From Solitalea longa (GTDB taxonomy: Bacteria; Bacteroidota; Bacteroidia; Sphingobacteriales; Sphingobacteriaceae): a stretch of DNA of 64,000 bases. The stretch lies in assembly GCF_002920915.1 (NCBI RefSeq), contig NZ_PQVF01000003.1, positions 310,001 to 374,000 of the forward strand, written 5' to 3'. The translations under genes and the position numbers were made by a program. Below are positions 14,155 to 58,672 of this stretch, in pieces. Each line of letters opens with the position of its first letter. Within the stretch, counting starts at the first letter, position 1. The notes beneath the pieces were generated by a model. That model had not been told where the DNA came from. It made no database searches and saw only the letters and a list, made by a program, of their open reading frames with translations.

Positions 14155-14650
14155 TCAGTGAATTCAAAACCTCTTTAATCTCGATTAATAAAGCCTGATC
14201 TTTCAATTCCCCTTTATTATTGAGTTTTGCACGGATAAAAGAGATCAGTAAGGTTGTTTCAGGCGGGGTTTGAGTAGATAAAGCGTTTAATACATTTAAC
14301 ATAGCTGCATGTCCTTTTTCACCCTGAGAAGATGCAGTGATCAATGCAACAGGCTTTTCAACCAATTCTCCGGAGGAAACGGTCCAGTCAATGGCATTTT
14401 TTAGTGCTCCCGGAATACCAAAGGCATATTCTGGGGTACAAATTAAAACGGCATCAGCTTCTTTAATCAAATTTTTAAAATGTAAAACGCTTTCCGGTAC
14501 TATTTCACTATCATCAAAAGCAGGAATATTCTTTAGTCCTTCATAAATAATAAATTCAATAGAGGAAGGTAGGAATGATGCAATTTGATGTAATACCTGA
14601 TTTGATGATGAATTAGCCCTTAAGCTTCCGGGGATGGCTAAGATTCTCAT
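14138..14650 (-). CDS. NADPH-dependent FMN reductase family protein
   Basis: 170 residues with a flavodoxin-like fold. The FMN phosphate loop is GSLRANSSSNQVL near the N-terminus, and the flavin contact motif is CTPEYAFGIPGALKNAIDW. It is predicted to reduce FMN or quinone/azo-type substrates with NAD(P)H in the cytosol. It is the last clear member of the minus-strand run uvrD-DUF4290-murA-lysE, 24 bp after the LysE gene. The specific substrate cannot be read from sequence. Confidence 0.9.
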   Translation of the reverse strand: MRILAIPGSLRANSSSNQVLHQIASFLPSSIEFIIYEGLKNIPAFDDSEIVPESVLHFKNLIKEADAVLICTPEYAFGIPGALKNAIDWTVSSGELVEKPVALITASSQGEKGHAAMLNVLNALSTQTPPETTLLISFIRAKLNNKGELKDQALLIEIKEVLNSLIALCK

Positions 14651-14674
14651 AGAGTAGCAATAAAAGAACAGGGT

Positions 14675-15322
14675 TTAAATCATATGCTTGTATCGGAGTC
14701 CCACTACCACAAGTTGTACTAAACCCAAAATAACAAATACCCATCCAATGGCTTTATTGATATTGCCATTTACCATTTTATTGATCCGTTCCTTTTTCCA
14801 GTGGGCAATACCTGCGAAAAGCAATAACAAGCCTAAGGCACCAACTGCAGCTCCAATAACGAATAAGCATTTGTCCATTTTATTGTCGAGCGAGAAAACA
14901 TTGATACTTGTATTATAGATTAATACAGTACTCCAAAATGGCAACAACAATGGATTTACAATAGACAAGGTAAATCCTTTCATGAAATCACCGAATAGGG
15001 TAGAGGGATATTCCTGGGGTTTAGTGTTTTCCGGTTCTTTATATTTGATGATTTTAAAGATGCCCAGTCCTAAAAGTAGTGGTACCATAAAAAAACCGGC
15101 ATAGAAAAAGAATGAACTTTTAGGATCGATAAGGCTGGTTCCGGCAACAGCAATAGCTGCGTATAAAATTTCAGGTAAACAACCTCCAATTGAAACCCAG
15201 AAAGCTGCGCGGAAGTCCTTATTTACAGAAGTTTGTATAACAGTAAGATTTACCGGCCCCAATTGCAAGGAGCCGATAAAACTTGCTACAAAAGCAATAA
15301 TAAATATATAGAGTTGCTCCAT
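14675..15322 (-). CDS. LysE family translocator
   Basis: 215 residues with about six hydrophobic segments. The start MEQLYIFIIAFVASFIGSLQ and the following LGPVNLTVIQTS correspond to the LysE/RhtB N-terminal helix and its glycine/proline motif. Family members export amino acids such as lysine, threonine or homoserine across the inner membrane; the substrate here is unknown. It begins 7 bp after the murA stop and is almost certainly co-transcribed with it. Confidence 0.87.
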   Translation of the reverse strand: MEQLYIFIIAFVASFIGSLQLGPVNLTVIQTSVNKDFRAAFWVSIGGCLPEILYAAIAVAGTSLIDPKSSFFFYAGFFMVPLLLGLGIFKIIKYKEPENTKPQEYPSTLFGDFMKGFTLSIVNPLLLPFWSTVLIYNTSINVFSLDNKMDKCLFVIGAAVGALGLLLLFAGIAHWKKERINKMVNGNINKAIGWVFVILGLVQLVVVGLRYKHMI

Positions 15323-46573: not shown

Positions 46574-49351
46574 ATGAAAGCTAAGATTTACGCTCTTTTG
46601 TTGATCCTCTCCATTTCTTTCCAAGTCTTTGGACAAAATGGCTTAACGGGCTTCAACTACCAAACGATCATTCGTAATTCTTCGGGAACACCACTTGCCA
46701 ATCAAAAGGTGAATATGCGATTTAGCGTATTGAGTGGATCCGGTTCGGGTGCTATTGAATATGCTGAAACACAACAACTCAGCACTAATCAGTACGGCCT
46801 GATAAATCACACTATAGGCCGGGGAACCCCTGTTCAGGGGCGTTTTTCAGAGATAAAGTGGAGCAGTGCCAATCAATATGTGAAAATTGAAGCCGATTTA
46901 AAAGGGGGGACTAATTTCAGCCAGATAGGTGTTGTTGAACTGACAGCTGTACCTTATGCATTGTATTCGCTAGGTAGTTCTTCGCCCGGAAGCAAAGAAT
47001 TAGGGACTGTAAAACCTACCACTCAGGTAGTTAATACCGTTACACAGCCCAATCAAACAGCAAGTGATACTTGTTGTTGTCCTCAGGGAGCACAAGGACC
47101 TATGGGGCCACAAGGGGCACAGGGGTTACAAGGTGCCACAGGTGCTACAGGAGCGCAAGGGCCTAAAGGTGAAACCGGAATTCAGGGACCAGTGGGGGCT
47201 CAAGGGCTACAAGGAGAAAAAGGAAATGTTGGCGCCACTGGTGCACAAGGTCCGAAAGGGGATACCGGTTCTCAAGGTCCGAAAGGTGCACAAGGCCCAC
47301 AAGGAGTTGCCGGCCCTCCAGGTGATTGCAAAACAGTAGTAGGACCTGCCGGACCTGCCGGCCCGCAAGGTGCTACCGGTGCTACCGGTCCACAAGGACC
47401 TGCCGGTGCAACTGGTCCTGCCGGACCACAAGGCCCACAAGGTATACCTGGTCCTTCCGGATCTATTGAGGGTGCATCAGCTGGTGGCGACTTAAGCGGA
47501 ACGTATCCAAATCCATCAGTAATAAAAATCCAAAATTTCGCAGTATCATCTAACACGCCTTCTAATGGCCAGGTATTGCAATGGAACGGCAGCGCTTGGA
47601 CTCCAAGTACGTTTTCAGGTGGCAGCGGAGGGTTGACTTTGCCTTTTACGGGTAGTCTATATTATTCAGGTATTGTATTCGGATTGACCAGTACCGGAAC
47701 AGGCACCACTTTTTCGGCCACTAATAATGGTTTGGGCCCTACAGGTGTGTTTAGTATTGGGGCCGTAACAAATACAAATAATGCTATAAGTGCAACAACT
47801 ATCGGAACCGGAGCTGCTGTATTTGGTCAGGCTAATGGCTCTGGTTTGGGCGGTTCATTTAGTTCAACTTCAGGTAAGGCATTGGTAACACAGGGGAGTC
47901 TTCAATTTAAAGGGATCGGAGAAGGTTCAGGTAAAGTTTTAACCTCGGATGCAACGGGTAATGCCACATGGCAAACCATTAGCGGAACTGTTGGTCCTCC
48001 AGGACCTGCCGGTCCAGCCGGTCCAGCCGGACCTCAAGGAGCTAAAGGTGATACCGGTGCAACTGGAGCAACCGGTCCCGCCGGTCCAGCCGGATCTCAG
48101 GGCGCCAAAGGTGATATCGGAGCAACGGGCCCTGCCGGAGCAGCCGGACCTCAAGGCGCTAAAGGTGATACTGGAGCAACTGGTGCAACCGGCGCAACCG
48201 GTCCTGTCGGTCCTCAGGGTGCCAAAGGTAATACAGGGGCCACTGGAGCGACCGGAGCACAAGGTTTAACGGGCCCTATTGGTCCACAGGGCCCACAAGG
48301 ACCAGCTGGTCCACAAGGTCCTCAAGGTCCTGCCGGTCCTGCGGGTGGAGGAGGTGGTGGTGCAACAGGAGCTGCCGGAGGCGATCTGTCTGGAAATTAT
48401 CCTAACCCTACAGTTGTAAAGCTTCAAACACGGCCAATTGCAACCACTGCTCCTGATAGCGGACAAGTACTGAAATGGAATGGAAGCAGTTGGTCTCCGG
48501 CTATTGATGGAGGTGGATTAACGTTACCATTTGTAGGTAGTGTATTTACTACGGCAACAGCGTTTGGGCTAACAAGTACAGGTTCAGGTACTACATTTTC
48601 GGCAACTAACAACGGTTTAGGACCCGCAGCTGTAATTACTATAGGTTCGGCTACAAATACTAATCACGGTGTTAGAAGCACAACCATAGGTACGGGTAAT
48701 GCTATTAACGGTTCTACATCAAATACAGGTGCCGGTGTTGCCGGACAAGCTACAGGAAGTGGTATTGGCGGTAGTTTTACAGCCACAACAACTAACGGAA
48801 AAGCGTTGGTTACAGATGGTAAAGTTCAAATAAAAGGTCAGGGAGCCGGTGCCGGCAAAGTTCTTACATCCGACCAAGATGGCAATGCAACCTGGCAAAC
48901 TCCGTCGGGTGGAGGAGGTACAGTTAGTGCAGCTTTTGAAGCTGTTCCTCCAACTGATACCGCAAAAGCTGTTAATGTAACCGTGGGTACTGAGTTCGCT
49001 TTAAAATTTAATAAAGAAAATTTTGATCGGGGAAATGTTTATGATACTACTGGAGTATTTAAGGCTCCTTCGGCCGGCGGTTATCATTTTAACGTAGCCA
49101 TTACGGTTGATAGTGCTCCATATGCAGGTTTAACCACCTTGATTTTAAAAAAGAACGGTGCAAAATACCGTGTAGCGGTTAGCCCTGAAAATAATTCAGG
49201 AACCATTACCATGCAGCTTAACGTAGATATCTACCTTAATCAAAATGATACGGTTACGCTGGCTCTTCTGCTTAATAACACGAAGGGTAAAACAAAGAAG
49301 CTCTACTGGGGAAGTCAGTATTCTTATTTTAGCGGGTTTAAACTCTTTTAA
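46574..49351 (+). CDS. secreted collagen-repeat and C1q-domain protein
   Basis: 925 residues from the ATG at 46574, which opens the signal peptide [21 protein letters not shown]; an upstream TTG at 46547 is rejected. Order: an N-terminal Bacteroidota surface-protein domain ([20 protein letters not shown] ... [13 protein letters not shown], about 22-140); a Cys triplet (167-169); collagen block 1 (172-296, interrupted by DCKTVV); a [12 protein letters not shown] module ending in ATWQT; collagen block 2 (about 474-591); a second [12 protein letters not shown] module ending in ATWQT; and a C-terminal C1q-like domain (about 786-925: [47 protein letters not shown]). The two collagen-plus-module halves are an internal duplication. 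It should form collagen-type trimers with a C1q head. It has no T9SS sorting domain; a T9SS-sorted protein is encoded 2 bp downstream. Confidence 0.9.
47087..47461 (+). repeat. collagen-like Gly-X-Y block 1
   Basis: About 40 GXY triplets rich in GPQ, GAQ, GPK, GAT and GPA, with one interruption (DCKTVV, 47323-47340). A CCC cluster (47072-47080) precedes it and could link three chains by disulfides. The DNA shows 9-bp periodic GGT/GGA-CCT/GCC-CAA/GCA patterns. Confidence 0.95.
47993..48346 (+). repeat. collagen-like Gly-X-Y block 2
   Basis: About 39 uninterrupted GXY triplets with a recurrent [20 protein letters not shown] register, giving about 36-45 bp higher-order DNA repeats. It ends in a poly-Gly hinge (GPAGGGGGG). 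Confidence 0.95.
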
Positions 49352-49353
49352 CT

Positions 49354-49893
49354 ATGAAATCTGTATTGTGTTTATGCTTGGGCTTATTGTTTTTTAATGG
49401 ATTGAAGGCACAGGTTTCGGTACGTAATCCCGATGTTGTTAAACGACAAATAGCAGATATAAACCAATATGTATTTGCAAGTGGCGGTGGTTTTAGCCAA
49501 ACATCCGATGGTGTAAGTTTACAATATTGTATTGGTGAACCCATTATTCAAACGTTGGTGGTTAACAGCAATTCATTAACACAGGGATTTGAGCAGCCCC
49601 ATTTATTGAGTAATCGCTTTACAGAATTGTTGGAAGTTAAAGGATTCGATTTAGTGCTTTATCCTAACCCTACTAATTTTTTAACTAAAGTGAAGTTTGT
49701 ATTAGACGAACCAGCTAACGTGAGAGTAGAAGTTTTGGATCAATTAGGTAGAATTTTAAGTACATTTTCAAAAAAATATGAGAGGGGAAATGTTGAGATA
49801 CCAATTGACGTAAAGCACTTAGCAGTAGGTGGATATTATGTTGAGGTTTACATCAATAATAATAAATATGAAAGGGCATTGGCTATAGAATAG
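49354..49893 (+). CDS. small protein with T9SS type A sorting domain
   Basis: 179 residues. Signal peptide MKSVLCLCLGLLFFNGLKA/Q, a short middle region of the common Bacteroidota type (FASGGGFSQTSDGVSLQYCI, GEPIIQTLV, LTQGFEQPHL), then a C-terminal type A sorting domain (LVLYPNPTNFLTKVKFVLDE, VEVLDQLGRIL, AVGGYYVEVYIN). It should be exported by the type IX system and attached to, or released from, the surface. It starts 2 bp after the collagen/C1q gene stop, so the two are almost certainly co-translated. Confidence 0.9.
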   Translation: MKSVLCLCLGLLFFNGLKAQVSVRNPDVVKRQIADINQYVFASGGGFSQTSDGVSLQYCIGEPIIQTLVVNSNSLTQGFEQPHLLSNRFTELLEVKGFDLVLYPNPTNFLTKVKFVLDEPANVRVEVLDQLGRILSTFSKKYERGNVEIPIDVKHLAVGGYYVEVYINNNKYERALAIE

Positions 49894-50012: not shown

Positions 50013-50039
50013 GGGGATTGGAAAACAATTCCCTTTTTT
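50013..50039 (+). terminator. terminator after the collagen/C1q - T9SS gene pair
   Basis: GGGGATTG (50013-50020) pairs with CAATTCCC (50026-50033) with one G-U pair around GAAAA, followed by TTTTTT. Confidence 0.82.
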
Positions 50040-53080: not shown

Positions 53081-56000
53081 ATGTTAGCTAGCCTTAAAAA
53101 TCATCTTACCAATCGAAAATTAGTATTAAGCTCCTTATTTGCTTTCATAATTGTAGCAATGGGGTCTTCGTATTATCTGATCTCATGTAAAAAGGGCTTA
53201 CAAGAGTCCAGTACTGCTTTTAATGAGTTTATCGAAGCTTACACTTCGGGGGTGGTCTCTAAACAAAGTAATGTACGGATCCAGTTGGCCGCTCAAACTG
53301 AAACAATACATGCTGCCGATGAGCCGCTTGAAGACGGCTTGTTCAGTATTAGTCCGGCTTTAAAAGGAAAAGCATTTTGGGTGGATGCCCGAACTGTTGA
53401 ATTCAGACCGGAGGAAGATATGAAAGCCGATCAAGCTTATAAAGTGGAGTTTAAGCTTGGCAAGGTGACTAAGGTCCCCGATCAATATGCAGATTTCGAA
53501 TTCGGTTTTTCAACGATCAAACCTTCATTGAGCATGGAATACAATGGTTTTAAATCATTGGATAATTCGATGGATCAAATGAGTTTTTCGGGTGTGGTTT
53601 ATACTGCTGATGCCGAAGATCCGGAAAAGGTAGAACAAACAGTTTCTGCGGGCTTTGGTAATAACAACAAAGTGGTAAAATGGACACATGAAAATGAATT
53701 GCGGACCCATCGTTTTACCATTGATAGTTTGCAAAAGAATACTACCACCCAGATTTTGGAAGTAAGAAGCAATGGAGCCGCCTTGGATATTGATAAAACA
53801 ACGAATTATACGGCCCCATTGCCAGCCTTAAATGATTTCAAGGTGTTGTCGATACGTGCGGTGAACGATGCTGAACAATATGTTTTAGTGCAGTTTTCCG
53901 TACCGGTAGCCATTAATCAGGATTTGGATGGCTTAATAACAATTTCAGAGGTTTCTGATCTGCGTTATACGATCTCGGGAAGTGAGGTGAAAGTTTTTGC
54001 TCCCGATAAATTGAATGAAAGTTATTCGGTTAGGGTTTCCAACGGAATAAAAAACATTGCAGACAAAGCAATGGCCTATCCAATGGAAGCCAATGTGTTT
54101 TTTGAGAATAGTTTCCCATCAGTTGAAATTCCGGGCAAGGGAGTAATTATTCCTTCAGGCGGAAAATTGGTGATGCCTTTTTATGCCTCCAACCTGAAGG
54201 CAGTGGATGTTACCATCATCAAAATATATGAAAACAATATTCCTCAATATCTGCAGCAAAATGACCTGAATGGTCAGTATGATTTGCGACGGGTGGCTAA
54301 ACCGGTGGTGCAGAAAACGATTTATTTAGATACCGACAAAGGACTTCGGCTAAATAAAAAGAATCGTTTTGCCCTTGATCTTGATAAGTTGATCAGGACT
54401 GAACCCGGGGCCATTTATCGGATTACAATTGGTTTTAGAAGGGAGTATTCATTAGTTAACTGTGAACAGGATACTACAGAAACAGAAGATGAAGAAAGGG
54501 AGTACTATGGAGAAAAGATTGATGAGGATGATGATTTTTGGAGGAGGTACGATTCCTATTACCCTTATGGCTACAGTTGGGATGAACGTAAGGATCCATG
54601 TAAATTATCCTACTACAACAAAGAACAATGGGCCGTTAGAAATGTAATGGCTTCCAATCTGGGTATCATTGCCAAGCGCGGTAATGATAATTCAATGCTT
54701 GTGGCTATTACAGAACTATTGACCACCAAGTCTATAGCTGGAGTAGAAGTGGAGCTGCTGGATTATCAGCGACAGGTTTTGGGTAAGGCTAAAACAGATG
54801 ATGAGGGGCTGGCAATGCTCAATTTACCTAAGCAACCGTTTTTACTGCTCGCTAAAAAGGGCGACCAAAGAGGTTATCTGAAGTTGGATGATGGCGGATC
54901 ATTGCCTATTAGTAAGTTTAATTTGGGTGGCGACGAAGTGCAAAAGGGGATTAAAGGGTTTATTTATGGCGAACGCGGGGTTTGGCGCCCGGGCGATTCA
55001 ATCTTTGTGAGCTTTATTTTAGAAGATAAAGAGAATAAACTTCCACAAGGGCATCCGGTAAGTTTCGAACTATACAACCCTAAAGGTCAACTCTATAAAA
55101 AGATAGTTCAAACTAAATCATTGAATGGATTTTATACATTCCCAACAGCAACCGATGTGAATTCACCAACCGGTAATTGGGTTGCAAAGGTAAAAGTGGG
55201 TGGGGCCGAATTTCAAAAAGTGCTTCGCATAGAAACCATTATGCCTAATCGTTTAAAGATCAATCTTGATTTTGGTAAAAAAGAGTTGGTTAAAGGTGAA
55301 AATCCAACGGCCACTTTAAATGCTAAATGGCTGTTTGGAGGAACTGCACATAGTTTAAAAGCCAAAGTCGACGTTTCCTTGTCTGCGGCTACTACTTCAT
55401 TTAAAGGACTTAACGATTATACGTTTCAAGATCCTGTTGCAGCGTTTTCAACGGAGAATAAAACTATTTTCGATGGACAACTTGATGATAACGGCAATGC
55501 GCCGGTTCAAGCCAATATTTCTGTTGAAAATACAGCCCCGGGGATGTTAAATGCCAACTTCCTGATCAAGGTTTTTGAGCCTGGTGGAAACTTTAGTATT
55601 GATAACTTCAGCCTATCTTATCATGTTTTTAACTCTTATGTAGGGATTAAAGCTCCGGAAGGGGATGAGTATACTGATATGTTGCCAACCGGAAAGAACA
55701 TTCCTATTGATATAGCTAATGTTAACACTTCCGGGGCATTAATTGGAGGGCAGCGCCAGGTTGAAGTTGAATTGTACAAAATCAGTTGGAAATGGTGGTG
55801 GGACGAAAGTGATGATGACTTTAGCAATTTCACTCAGGATGAATACAATAAATTTATAAAACAAGAAAAGGTTGTACTGCAAAACGGCAAAGGGCAGTGG
55901 AACCTTAAAGTAAGTGATGATGATTGGGGACGGTATTTGGTAAGAGTTCGCGATTTAAAGAGCGGGCACGTTACGGGTAAAGTGGTGTATTTAGATAATC

Positions 56001-58672
56001 CATATTGGAGTACACGCAGCGATGGGACAGGAAGTACCGCAGCAACCATGTTAACATTTACCAGTGATAAAGAAAAATATAATGTTGGTGATGAGGTTAA
56101 GCTTTCTATTCCATCTGCTCAGGGTGGCAGAGCGCTTATAAGCATCGAATCGGGAAGCAAAGTAGTGAAAACCTATTGGGTTGATGCCGCAAAAGGAGAA
56201 ACTCAGTTTAAGTTTAAGGCAGAAAGCAGCATGTCGCCCAATGTATTTGTTAATGTTAGCTTGTTACAGCCGCACTCGCAAACCGTAAACGATAAGCCCA
56301 TTCGAATGTATGGTGCCATTCCAATTACCGTAGAAGATAAAAACAATGTTTTAAAGCCTATTCTTAAAATTCCAACTAGCATCAGGCCCGAAAGTGAAGT
56401 GAACTTCTCTGTAGCTGAAGCATCGGGTAAAGAAATGACCTACACAGTTGCTTTAGTTGATGAAGGTTTACTGGATATCACCCGTTACAAAACCCCTAAT
56501 CCTTATGCCGCTTTTTATGCCCGTGAAGCACTGGGTGTAAAAACCTGGGATTTATATGATTATGTGTTAGGAGCATGGGGCGGTGATTTGGAGCGTATTT
56601 TAAGTATAGGTGGTGATCAAAGCGGGGGAAAAGCTGCAGCGGCAAATCGCGCTAATCGATTTAAACCGGTAGTTAAGTTTTTAGGGCCTTTTGCGTTAAA
56701 AGCTAATGGTTCAAACTCCCATAAAGTTAAGTTACCACCATATGTAGGTTCTGTAAAGGTAATGCTCATAGCCGGACAAAAAGGCGCTTATGGTTTTGCT
56801 GAGCAGGCCGTGGCCGTTAAAAAACCATTAATGCTATTGACCACATTGCCAAGAGTGTTAAGCCCGGGTGAAACCTTTAAGCTGCCGGTAAGTGTTTTTG
56901 CCATGGAGCGAAATATTCGTAATGCTTCCGTAACTGTTCAGGCAAATCCGTTTTTAGAGATAATAGGTGGAAGCACAAAAGCTGTAACATTTACCCAAAC
57001 AGGCGAGCAATTAGTTTATTTTGATGTTAGAGTTAAGCAAACGATAGGGGTAGCCAAAGTTAGGGTAACTGCTCAAAGTGGGGCTGAAAAGGCAGATGAT
57101 AATGTGGAAATTGAGGTTCGCAATCCGAATAATGTAATTACCAAGGTACAGCAGGCGACACTAATGCCGGACAAGTCATTGTCATTACCGGTTCAAATGA
57201 TCGGAATGTTAGCTACTGCAAAGGGTACGCTTGAAGTTTCGAGTATTCCACCAATTAACCTGGCCAAGAGGTTAACTTATTTGATTCAATACCCGCATGG
57301 TTGTGTGGAACAAACTACTTCATCGGTGTTTCCACAACTTGCATTAAACCAGCTGATGGACCTTTCAGACAGGCAAAAGGCTGAAGTTGACCGAAATGTT
57401 AAGGCAGCAATTAACCGACTGAAAGGCTTTCAAACAACTGATGGGGGCTTCGGTTATTGGCCCGGTGATTCTCAGCCTGATGAATGGGGGACTAATTATG
57501 CTGGTCATTTTATTCTTGAATCTCAAAAACGTGGATATAGCCTGCCTCCGGTAATGCTTCAGCAATGGAAAAAATATCAAAAGAACAAAGCCGTTTCATG
57601 GACTCCAACTACGGATAATTTCTACGGAGGCGACTTATCACAGGCATACCGCTTATACTTGCTTGCTTTGTGCAAAGCGCCGGAAATAGGAGCAATGAAC
57701 AGGCTTAAAGCGTTTAAGTATCTTTCTAATGAGGCTAAGTGGAGACTGGCTTCAGCCTACCAATTGGCAGGGCAAGAAGAGGTAGCTAAATCGATGATCA
57801 AGGGTCTGGCTACAACAGTTAAATCCTACAGGCAATTGGGAGGAACCTTTGGTTCTGATCTACGTGATCAGGCCATGATCCTCGAAACCTTATCCTTACT
57901 GGGTGAAAAACAAAAAGCTGCTGGGGTGATGCAAACTGTGGCATCAAAATTAGCTTTAGATGAATGGTATAGCACGCAAACCACCGCTTATTCGTTATTG
58001 GCCATTGCTCAGTATTGTGGTGAAAATTCAGGATCAAAAATGAGTTTTAGTTACCAAGCAAATGGAACCAGTGGTTCGGTGAACTCAAATTCGGTAGTTT
58101 CTCAGGTTAATATCAACAAAAACGGTAAAGCTGTTATTCAGAATAAGGGTACCAATATTTTATATGTTCGTTTAATATTAAGCGGAAGACCACAAGTTGG
58201 GGAAACTATTGAGGCCCATGGGAATGCCGACATCTTAAAAATGAATGTAGTTTACAAAGCTCTTGATGGCAGCATTGTTAATCCTACTCGTTTAGCGCAA
58301 GGAACTGATTTTGTTGCTGAAGTAACAGTTGCCAATCCTGGTAACCGTGGTCACTATGAACAAATGGCCTTAACGCAATTGTTCCCCTCAGGTTGGCAAA
58401 TTATCAATACCCGTTTAACCAGTGATGAAAATAGGTTTAATTCCTCTCCATCAACTTATAAAGATATAAGGGATGATCGGGTGAACACCTATTTTAACTT
58501 GAATGCAGGACGAACGGTTACCTATCATGTACTTTTAAATGCATCATATATCGGTAAGTTTTATCTGCCTACGACCAATTGTGAGGCAATGTACGATGCC
58601 ACTATAAGTGCAGGAACTGCAGGTCAATTGGTGGAAGTAGTGAAGGGTGATGCCGAAATGGCAAATAAATAG
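53081..58672 (+). CDS. alpha-2-macroglobulin family lipoprotein with thioester
   Basis: 1863 residues. An N-terminal hydrophobic segment ends in a lipobox (LISC, Cys36), so it is membrane-anchored in the periplasm. Many macroglobulin beta domains follow, including MG2 (GFIYGERGVWRPGDSIFVSF) and the core A2M region (FLGPFALKANGSNSHKVKLP, PYVGSVKVMLIAGQKGAYGF). The thioester motif is intact: YPHGCVEQTTS, with Cys1408 and Gln1411. The helical thioester domain continues (INRLKGFQTTDGGFGYWPGD). An acidic insert (TTETEDEEREYYGE...) lies near residues 465-510. The family traps proteases covalently. In many bacteria it pairs with PBP1C, as it does here after one inverted gene. Confidence 0.96.
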   Translation: MLASLKNHLTNRKLVLSSLFAFIIVAMGSSYYLISCKKGLQESSTAFNEFIEAYTSGVVSKQSNVRIQLAAQTETIHAADEPLEDGLFSISPALKGKAFWVDARTVEFRPEEDMKADQAYKVEFKLGKVTKVPDQYADFEFGFSTIKPSLSMEYNGFKSLDNSMDQMSFSGVVYTADAEDPEKVEQTVSAGFGNNNKVVKWTHENELRTHRFTIDSLQKNTTTQILEVRSNGAALDIDKTTNYTAPLPALNDFKVLSIRAVNDAEQYVLVQFSVPVAINQDLDGLITISEVSDLRYTISGSEVKVFAPDKLNESYSVRVSNGIKNIADKAMAYPMEANVFFENSFPSVEIPGKGVIIPSGGKLVMPFYASNLKAVDVTIIKIYENNIPQYLQQNDLNGQYDLRRVAKPVVQKTIYLDTDKGLRLNKKNRFALDLDKLIRTEPGAIYRITIGFRREYSLVNCEQDTTETEDEEREYYGEKIDEDDDFWRRYDSYYPYGYSWDERKDPCKLSYYNKEQWAVRNVMASNLGIIAKRGNDNSMLVAITELLTTKSIAGVEVELLDYQRQVLGKAKTDDEGLAMLNLPKQPFLLLAKKGDQRGYLKLDDGGSLPISKFNLGGDEVQKGIKGFIYGERGVWRPGDSIFVSFILEDKENKLPQGHPVSFELYNPKGQLYKKIVQTKSLNGFYTFPTATDVNSPTGNWVAKVKVGGAEFQKVLRIETIMPNRLKINLDFGKKELVKGENPTATLNAKWLFGGTAHSLKAKVDVSLSAATTSFKGLNDYTFQDPVAAFSTENKTIFDGQLDDNGNAPVQANISVENTAPGMLNANFLIKVFEPGGNFSIDNFSLSYHVFNSYVGIKAPEGDEYTDMLPTGKNIPIDIANVNTSGALIGGQRQVEVELYKISWKWWWDESDDDFSNFTQDEYNKFIKQEKVVLQNGKGQWNLKVSDDDWGRYLVRVRDLKSGHVTGKVVYLDNPYWSTRSDGTGSTAATMLTFTSDKEKYNVGDEVKLSIPSAQGGRALISIESGSKVVKTYWVDAAKGETQFKFKAESSMSPNVFVNVSLLQPHSQTVNDKPIRMYGAIPITVEDKNNVLKPILKIPTSIRPESEVNFSVAEASGKEMTYTVALVDEGLLDITRYKTPNPYAAFYAREALGVKTWDLYDYVLGAWGGDLERILSIGGDQSGGKAAAANRANRFKPVVKFLGPFALKANGSNSHKVKLPPYVGSVKVMLIAGQKGAYGFAEQAVAVKKPLMLLTTLPRVLSPGETFKLPVSVFAMERNIRNASVTVQANPFLEIIGGSTKAVTFTQTGEQLVYFDVRVKQTIGVAKVRVTAQSGAEKADDNVEIEVRNPNNVITKVQQATLMPDKSLSLPVQMIGMLATAKGTLEVSSIPPINLAKRLTYLIQYPHGCVEQTTSSVFPQLALNQLMDLSDRQKAEVDRNVKAAINRLKGFQTTDGGFGYWPGDSQPDEWGTNYAGHFILESQKRGYSLPPVMLQQWKKYQKNKAVSWTPTTDNFYGGDLSQAYRLYLLALCKAPEIGAMNRLKAFKYLSNEAKWRLASAYQLAGQEEVAKSMIKGLATTVKSYRQLGGTFGSDLRDQAMILETLSLLGEKQKAAGVMQTVASKLALDEWYSTQTTAYSLLAIAQYCGENSGSKMSFSYQANGTSGSVNSNSVVSQVNINKNGKAVIQNKGTNILYVRLILSGRPQVGETIEAHGNADILKMNVVYKALDGSIVNPTRLAQGTDFVAEVTVANPGNRGHYEQMALTQLFPSGWQIINTRLTSDENRFNSSPSTYKDIRDDRVNTYFNLNAGRTVTYHVLLNASYIGKFYLPTTNCEAMYDATISAGTAGQLVEVVKGDAEMANK

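Follow-up and report, generated by a model that had tools for sequence, protein, structure and literature searches.

A collagen-stalked fibre with a C1q-fold head and a candidate sorting-tail adaptor encoded beside it in Solitalea longa

The window, a stretch of 64,000 nucleotides from Solitalea longa (contig NZ_PQVF01000003.1 of assembly GCF_002920915.1, positions 310,001 to 374,000, forward strand), contains two adjacent genes at positions 46574 to 49893. The first encodes a large fibre protein and the second a small partner protein. Together they are interpreted here as a probable two-polypeptide surface adhesive fibre. The features of the two genes are as follows, in window positions.

46574..49351, plus strand: fibre gene, 925 amino acids, ATG start (open reading frame (ORF) list and translation)
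46574..46633, plus strand: signal peptide of 20 residues, ending VFG before Q (by eye; hydrophobic start, the Q aligned in alignment A1)
46634..46981, plus strand: N-terminal domain (N-domain) of about 116 residues, a relative of the N-domain of mosaic adhesive trimer (MAT) fibres (NF053851 match below the cut-off)
47072..47080, plus strand: Cys-Cys-Cys ahead of the first collagen run
47087..47467, plus strand: collagen block 1, 27 + 14 Gly-X-Y triplets with a short interruption (Pfam and triplet count)
47474..47983, plus strand: fibre module 1 (module alignment)
47984..48361, plus strand: collagen block 2, 42 triplets
48371..48928, plus strand: fibre module 2, related to module 1 (module alignment)
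48929..49348, plus strand: C1q head, Pfam match at 48995-49339 (Pfam, AlphaFold2 model, fold search)
49354..49893, plus strand: partner gene, 179 amino acids, starting 2 bp past the fibre stop (ORF list)
49459..49605, plus strand: adaptor motif of the partner, SGGG...SLQYCIGEP...LTQGFEQP (alignment A8)
49657..49875, plus strand: type A sorting domain of the type 9 secretion system (T9SS) in the partner (TIGR04183, PF18962; fold of the tail of the relative L065)

The profile search that the first-pass annotation had proposed for the C-terminal region gives a match over the cut-off. Pfam C1q (PF00386, cut-off 23.7) scores 31.3 bits with the whole protein, at residues 808-922, and 36.2 bits with the last 150 residues alone. 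The AlphaFold2 model of these 150 residues (predicted local distance difference test, pLDDT, 80.5; predicted template modelling score, pTM, 0.79) is built of strands with no helix. The C1q-like signature read in that annotation is thereby borne out; lack of a C1q match and of a jelly-roll had been named as speaking against it, and both a profile match and a single-chain jelly-roll model were obtained. In Foldseek the head model has the globular head of human C1q as its first PDB match (E 1.9e-8). With VIA-align the head gives Z 16.9 against the C1q domain of Caprin-2 (127 aligned residues, 1.9 A, 26% identity), 15.8 against human C1q chain B, 15.6 against a phage spike and 14.7 against Bacillus BclA. 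A PDB search by sequence alone gives weak matches, of which the best of C1q type is Cerebellin-4 (E 0.13). As modelled, the fibre head is a genuine C1q/TNF jelly-roll fold.

The animal C1q-family heads (C1q, Caprin-2, C1QL, cerebellin) are alike in fold, with Z 15.5-16.9 and 16-27% identity among the matches listed. That they are the closest solved folds would fit a head that imitates animal C1q or a C1q ligand and so engages a eukaryotic host, and a 2026 survey of fibres of extracellular contractile injection systems argues, in its available text, for C1q transfer from animals (PMC12923769). Such mimicry is highly improbable for the window fibre: the fold is matched by the BclA and phage spike heads as well, no pointer to a host emerged in this analysis, and C1q-like heads are present at 11 loci of viral contigs (L209-L219), some of them alike. 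Because of these 11 loci, C1q tips can be said to occur also in phage-like sequence. In the window's own genome a single C1q domain was found. A C1q scan of genome contigs with the window head as sole query gave 45 pattern matches and no confirmed one. Another bacterial C1q architecture is seen at L043:11612-13338 (genome G059), where two short proteins encoded in tandem look secreted and end in C1q; they are not among the N-domain hits.

The Gly-X-Y runs of the stalk cover residues 172-252 (27 triplets), 257-298 (14) and 471-596 (42, or 40 if Gly is barred from X and Y). The longest run is about fivefold the maximum of 8 triplets in 2000 residue shuffles, and Pfam Collagen (PF01391) scores 98.4 bits. 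Of the two Gly-X-Y blocks described at first pass, the long runs stand, while the first block is broken by KTVV after GDC. The Cys triplet read at first pass is at 47072. The two GGDLSG modules (motif at 47483 and 48377) are related as had been claimed, with 60% identity over the 156 columns of the stretches compared. The duplication of stalk plus module had been thought unusual. This view is not sustained, since a PHROG tail-fibre family covers just such a stretch, collagen block 2 with module 2 (residues 459-803), and repetition is not alien to fibres. A module alone matches PHROGs weakly (19.6 bits over 30 residues); tail proteins make up 15 of the 25 PHROG matches listed for the fibre (of 36), many over the collagen parts. 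The picture of a secreted adhesin-like fibre with a collagen stalk and a true C1q-fold head is supported. A collagen stalk with a C1q/TNF-like head is also the plan of the BclA-type collagen-like proteins of Bacillus, which differ from the window fibre in N-terminus, context and partner. Head structures of this type are 3tyj and 3twi, and the window head has 13% identity to 3tyj (BclA) over 129 aligned residues.

The base of the fibre appears to connect it with a different group of proteins, a tie to the MAT chimeric-fibre superfamily that the first-pass annotation did not recognise. The N-domain of the window has no Pfam match. It scores 41.9 bits with NCBIfam NF053851, the N-domain of Bdellovibrio MAT fibres, under the curated cut-off of 60; the same model matches all 14 aligned N-domain sequences scanned (best E 3.8e-13). 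Judged from sequence, the window N-domain is a relative of the MAT N-domain and not a certified member. The N-domain of the relative L065 is modelled at pLDDT 88-98 (blocks of ten) and is nearly all strand. A single N-domain of this kind was found in the window's genome. The N-domain profile is present in 28 of 60 genomes, a set consisting of the own genome and 59 relatives, and in at least 80 of 296 genomes of the phylum, some genomes being included in both sets.

Behind this base the fibres end in many ways. The 60-genome set gave 82 N-domain ORFs outside the window's own genome; 12 are cut at the 3' end and 3 are short, N-containing or duplicate, leaving 67 C-terminal parts, trimmed to at most 400 residues. 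Pfam identified collagen in 18 of them, Peptidase_S74 in 9, Lcl_C in 9, Fib_succ_major and YadA_head in 3 each, and C1q and End_tail_spike in 2 each, with 14 families in all, seven of which were found once. The available text on Bdellovibrio bacteriovorus describes MAT fibres as carrying S74, TNF/C1q-like and other tips on a constant N-domain base (PMC10769870). A constant base with S74, TNF-like and other tips is the MAT pattern, and the fibre base can be called MAT-like. The window fibre appears to be a MAT-like chimera whose C1q tip is one of many that can be swapped, and for this reason the 'bacterial C1q molecule' of the first-pass annotation does not hold as a natural class, C1q being found in 2 of the 67 parts against 9 each for S74 and Lcl_C. 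Signal peptide, related N-domain, modular shaft and swappable tips are common to the window fibre and MAT fibres. The window fibre differs from them in its collagen stalks, its adjacent sorting-tail adaptor and an N-domain below the NF053851 cut-off; the main text of the MAT paper nowhere uses the word 'collagen' (PMC10769870). It differs from animal C1q in having no complement context and in being a single polypeptide with a MAT-like base. MAT-like N-domains are also encoded on two contigs classed as viral (L059 and L060), with no partner motif in the stretches examined.

The partner gene carries a sorting tail, of which none was recognised on the fibre. Its tail scores 31.1 bits with TIGR04183 (cut-off 23) and 35 bits with PF18962 (cut-off 27), in agreement with the type A T9SS domain that had been assigned to the downstream neighbour. 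Presence of T9SS was judged by SprA, which scores 2503.8 bits in the window's genome. The best fold matches listed for the tail model of L065 are DUF3244 Ig-like proteins (Z 11.2-11.7), followed by the T9SS tails of mirolase (10.3), PorZ (9.7), PorU (9.6) and NucA (9.6). In the fold search with the fused L065 model, the listed matches that cover one domain align to the sorting tail, and those of greater length extend over both Ig-like (immunoglobulin-like) domains. Scanned against Pfam with E values up to 1 allowed, the window fibre gave Collagen and C1q only, with no C-terminal sorting domain. A hidden Markov model (HMM) of the type A tail matched none of the 181 fibre ORFs of sets A and B (159 with complete 3' end, some duplicates), and no sorting tail, type B included, was among the Pfam families of the 67 C-terminal parts.

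On balance the neighbour is probably a sorting-tail adaptor that exports the fibre, anchors it, or does both, in trans. In this arrangement both proteins would reach the periplasm via Sec, as their signal peptides suggest, and the fibre would trimerise through its collagen and C1q parts. The N-domain would lie at the cell end and be followed by the shaft of collagen and modules, with the C1q head at the far end for a ligand. The partner motif would bind the fibre base at the N-domain, and the partner tail would engage PorV and SprA, carrying the complex to the cell surface and/or fixing it there. The outcome would be a fibre on the surface with the C1q head outward. Export in trans is the boldest part of this proposal, and anchoring alone is its main rival.

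The partner motif occurs mostly in the company of the fibre. The conserved motif is about 50 residues long, with two Gly and one Gln invariant in its alignment, and its model (A8, 54 positions) was built from the window partner and from partners found around N-domain hits; adjacency measured with it is therefore possibly inflated. This bias does not affect a search in which the window partner was the sole query: of the 17 loci read for its better hits, 13 have a fibre nearby, one of them with PorV between partner and fibre. At loci found in this way a small gene resembling the partner directly adjoins an N-domain fibre gene, either before or after it. In 70 loci of the 60 genomes (own genome excluded), a same-strand motif ORF lies no more than 400 bp away from 38 of the 82 N-domain ORFs, and 36 of the 43 motif ORFs are placed in this way next to an N-domain ORF. 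Motif ORFs on the opposite strand within 400 bp of a fibre numbered 0 of 43 and 0 of 60. The whole-genome search with A8 in the 60 genomes placed 42 of 53 hits beside a same-strand fibre (within 800 bp), 27 with the partner first and 15 with the fibre first. In the phylum set at least 38 of 46 motif hits adjoin a same-strand fibre, a lower bound with 14 candidates scored per genome. Set B was seeded from paired loci and was left out of these adjacency rates.

By genome, motif and N-domain occur together in 27 of the 60, the motif alone in none, the N-domain alone in 1 and neither in 32 (Fisher 3e-16). In the own family the corresponding numbers are 11, 0, 1 and 25 (Fisher 1.4e-8); both Fisher values ignore shared descent. 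Among the matches listed for the 296 phylum genomes they are 34, 1, 46 and 215. From these counts the motif nearly always implies a fibre, and a fibre does not imply the motif. The first-pass annotation had taken the T9SS-tailed neighbour for a companion of the fibre and proposed a survey of relatives for the pair, with its absence from all of them as the contrary result. The pair is present in relatives, and co-occurrence and adjacency there support the companionship. Taibaiella soli (L105) and Edaphocola flava (L112), both environmental isolates, are examples of organisms with a pair. Three loci add to the range of arrangements. Four N-domain fibres in a row precede a single type B partner at L193:2312-9585, so that one adaptor may serve several fibres. 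At L055:2148-5034 the fibre gene is immediately followed by seven short ORFs in a row that resemble one another and look secreted. In L111 the pair is on a contig labelled as a Competibacteraceae metagenome-assembled genome, perhaps mis-binned.

The motif is kept while the tail behind it changes. The type A tail model is matched by 86 of 103 motif ORFs. The partners of L165, L174, L179, L182, L187 and L193 are not of type A, and Pfam gave type B/CHU_C in all six tested; TIGR04131 confirmed type B in four of those six and separately in L182. Two ORFs of one genome (L082:7581-7994 and 14283-14717), each beside an N-domain fibre, combine the motif with an IPTL-CTERM-like tail; with TIGR04174 one copy reaches 22.7 bits, above the cut-off of 20.5, and the second 17.6. 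The same genome has a match to the XrtH-family exosortase of 73 bits, under the cut-off of 86, and SprA in two pieces; no XrtH match was obtained in the window's genome or in that of L065. Judging by these family matches, the tail is swapped among three unrelated kinds, type A, type B and IPTL-CTERM, behind a retained motif. The L174 partner has an SprB repeat on board, and in L097 motif and tail end a C10 peptidase adjoining the fibre. For the L107 partner no tail family match was obtained in Pfam or in a second family library.

A role of the partner as a folding or trimerisation chaperone exported along with the fibre would fit a motif that is short, conserved and of low confidence when modelled; S74 chaperone ends are found on 9 of the 67 sibling fibre parts. 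For such a chaperone a surface-sorting tail would be superfluous, yet most partners examined have one of the several kinds, and this explanation is decidedly improbable. The swapping also bears on the reading of the partner as an anchor only, in which the fibre crosses the outer membrane otherwise and the partner, displayed by T9SS, then catches the N-domain. The motif is also found on the non-T9SS tail IPTL-CTERM, and the genome concerned has retained SprA; for this reason anchoring may be the role that the tails share. The many N-domain fibres with no adjacent motif fit the same reading. What argues for the tail as a means of export is that T9SS shuttle genes directly adjoin the partner in a few loci: PorV stands beside type A partners at L041:6746-8370 (no fibre seen in the stretch read) and L042:1286-2964, and in both L180 and L182 the type B partner has PorP/SprF directly after it. 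PorV recognises substrates of type A, and those of type B frequently have a link to PorP/SprF genes, two having been shown to rely on them (PMC12618676, available text); T9SS substrates are proposed to leave SprA with the C-terminal domain (CTD) first (PMC10994853, available text). Anchoring alone is considered somewhat unlikely, no search aimed at a different exporter having been made.

Several results weigh against an exporting or anchoring adaptor. In the 60 genomes a motif hit is lacking beside 39 of 84 N-domain hits, some of which lie at contig ends, and among the matches listed 46 of the 80 phylum genomes with an N-domain have no motif; many N-domain fibres therefore manage without this adaptor. 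Motif hits away from fibres amount to 11 of 53 in the 60 genomes and at most 8 of 46 in the phylum. A pattern scan found PorP-like shuttle genes at 3 of the 12 loci whose partners are not of type A; PorV was seen at two places in the whole set of loci. The XrtH match is below its cut-off, and a match of this kind was also seen in 1 of 14 control genomes. Co-folding of the L065 partner with its N-domain, as a read-through chain with one copy of each and the fibre signal peptide between them, gave no interface; N-domain and tail were confident, with the motif at pLDDT 37-49 and pTM at 0.46. The co-fold was dropped as evidence for binding, no dock being seen at that pTM. Correlation of distance matrices over 78 pairs gave partial r of 0.354 and 0.355, with the motif not favoured over the tail.

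The missing interface and the motif hits away from fibres would suit a partner that is a small T9SS surface protein in its own right, sharing regulation but no physical contact with the fibre. Nearly all genomes with the motif have the N-domain, both gene orders occur and the short motif is retained as the tail changes, and an independent protein is on these grounds clearly unlikely. The reading of the partner as an adaptor may extend beyond the window to a general 'sorting tail in trans', in which a short motif recognises a MAT-like base and supplies a sorting tail of a kind that the genome is able to use (T9SS type A, type B or IPTL/exosortase). Large trimeric adhesins with no outer-membrane secretion signal of their own would thereby owe both export and anchoring to a tiny plug-in protein. 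This general form is a realistic possibility, somewhat short of probable.

The collagen-C1q architecture, the MAT fibres and the T9SS tails are each already known. Among the matches listed in the open-access literature (titles and beginnings of abstracts), the pairing of a tail-less fibre with an adaptor made of a motif and a swappable tail was not described. The partner resembles T9SS type A and B substrates with their PorV or PorP/SprF shuttles, as presented in the available text of PMC10994853 and PMC12618676, in its type A CTD, in the type B tails of some relatives and in the shuttles beside a few. Unlike in usual T9SS substrates, the tail is here on a tiny separate protein and not on the adhesin. 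Should the tail indeed come from the adaptor in trans, T9SS would select more cargo than 'proteins with a CTD', and cargo counts would overlook surface adhesins that have no CTD. The surface element that the MAT N-domain binds awaits identification according to the available text of PMC10769870. The genomes offer a concrete surface-partner candidate for these MAT-related fibres, namely the small protein encoded next to them, whose motif is conserved and whose tail is swappable. A 'sorting tail in trans', if true, would at the same time tell what sort of surface element MAT N-domains bind.

Within the genus, genome G002 (L039) carries the pair at the site that it has in the window, with rarA and topA on either side, and there too the fibre has a C1q head. 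The rarA-topA interval of G001 contains a match of 32 residues to the last residues of the partner (47% identity, E 1.3e-5) and no fibre match, and that of G003 (0.3 kb) has neither fibre nor partner. This pattern fits a loss of the pair at one site. That the locus came from a phage was considered and is unsupported, because the pair is flanked by rarA and topA in both the window and G002, and the interval is fibre-free in G001 and G003. A terminator-like stem follows the pair (50013..50033, plus strand); it is weak, with 3 such sites in the region and 4.2 expected by chance. Downstream of topA, at window positions 53081-58672, lies the gene of a large bacterial alpha-2-macroglobulin (MG2, bMG3/5/6/10, bait region, A2M, TED), and a long ORF occupies a similar place in G002 (L039). 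The presence of C3-family kin near a C1q-like gene is probably a coincidence.

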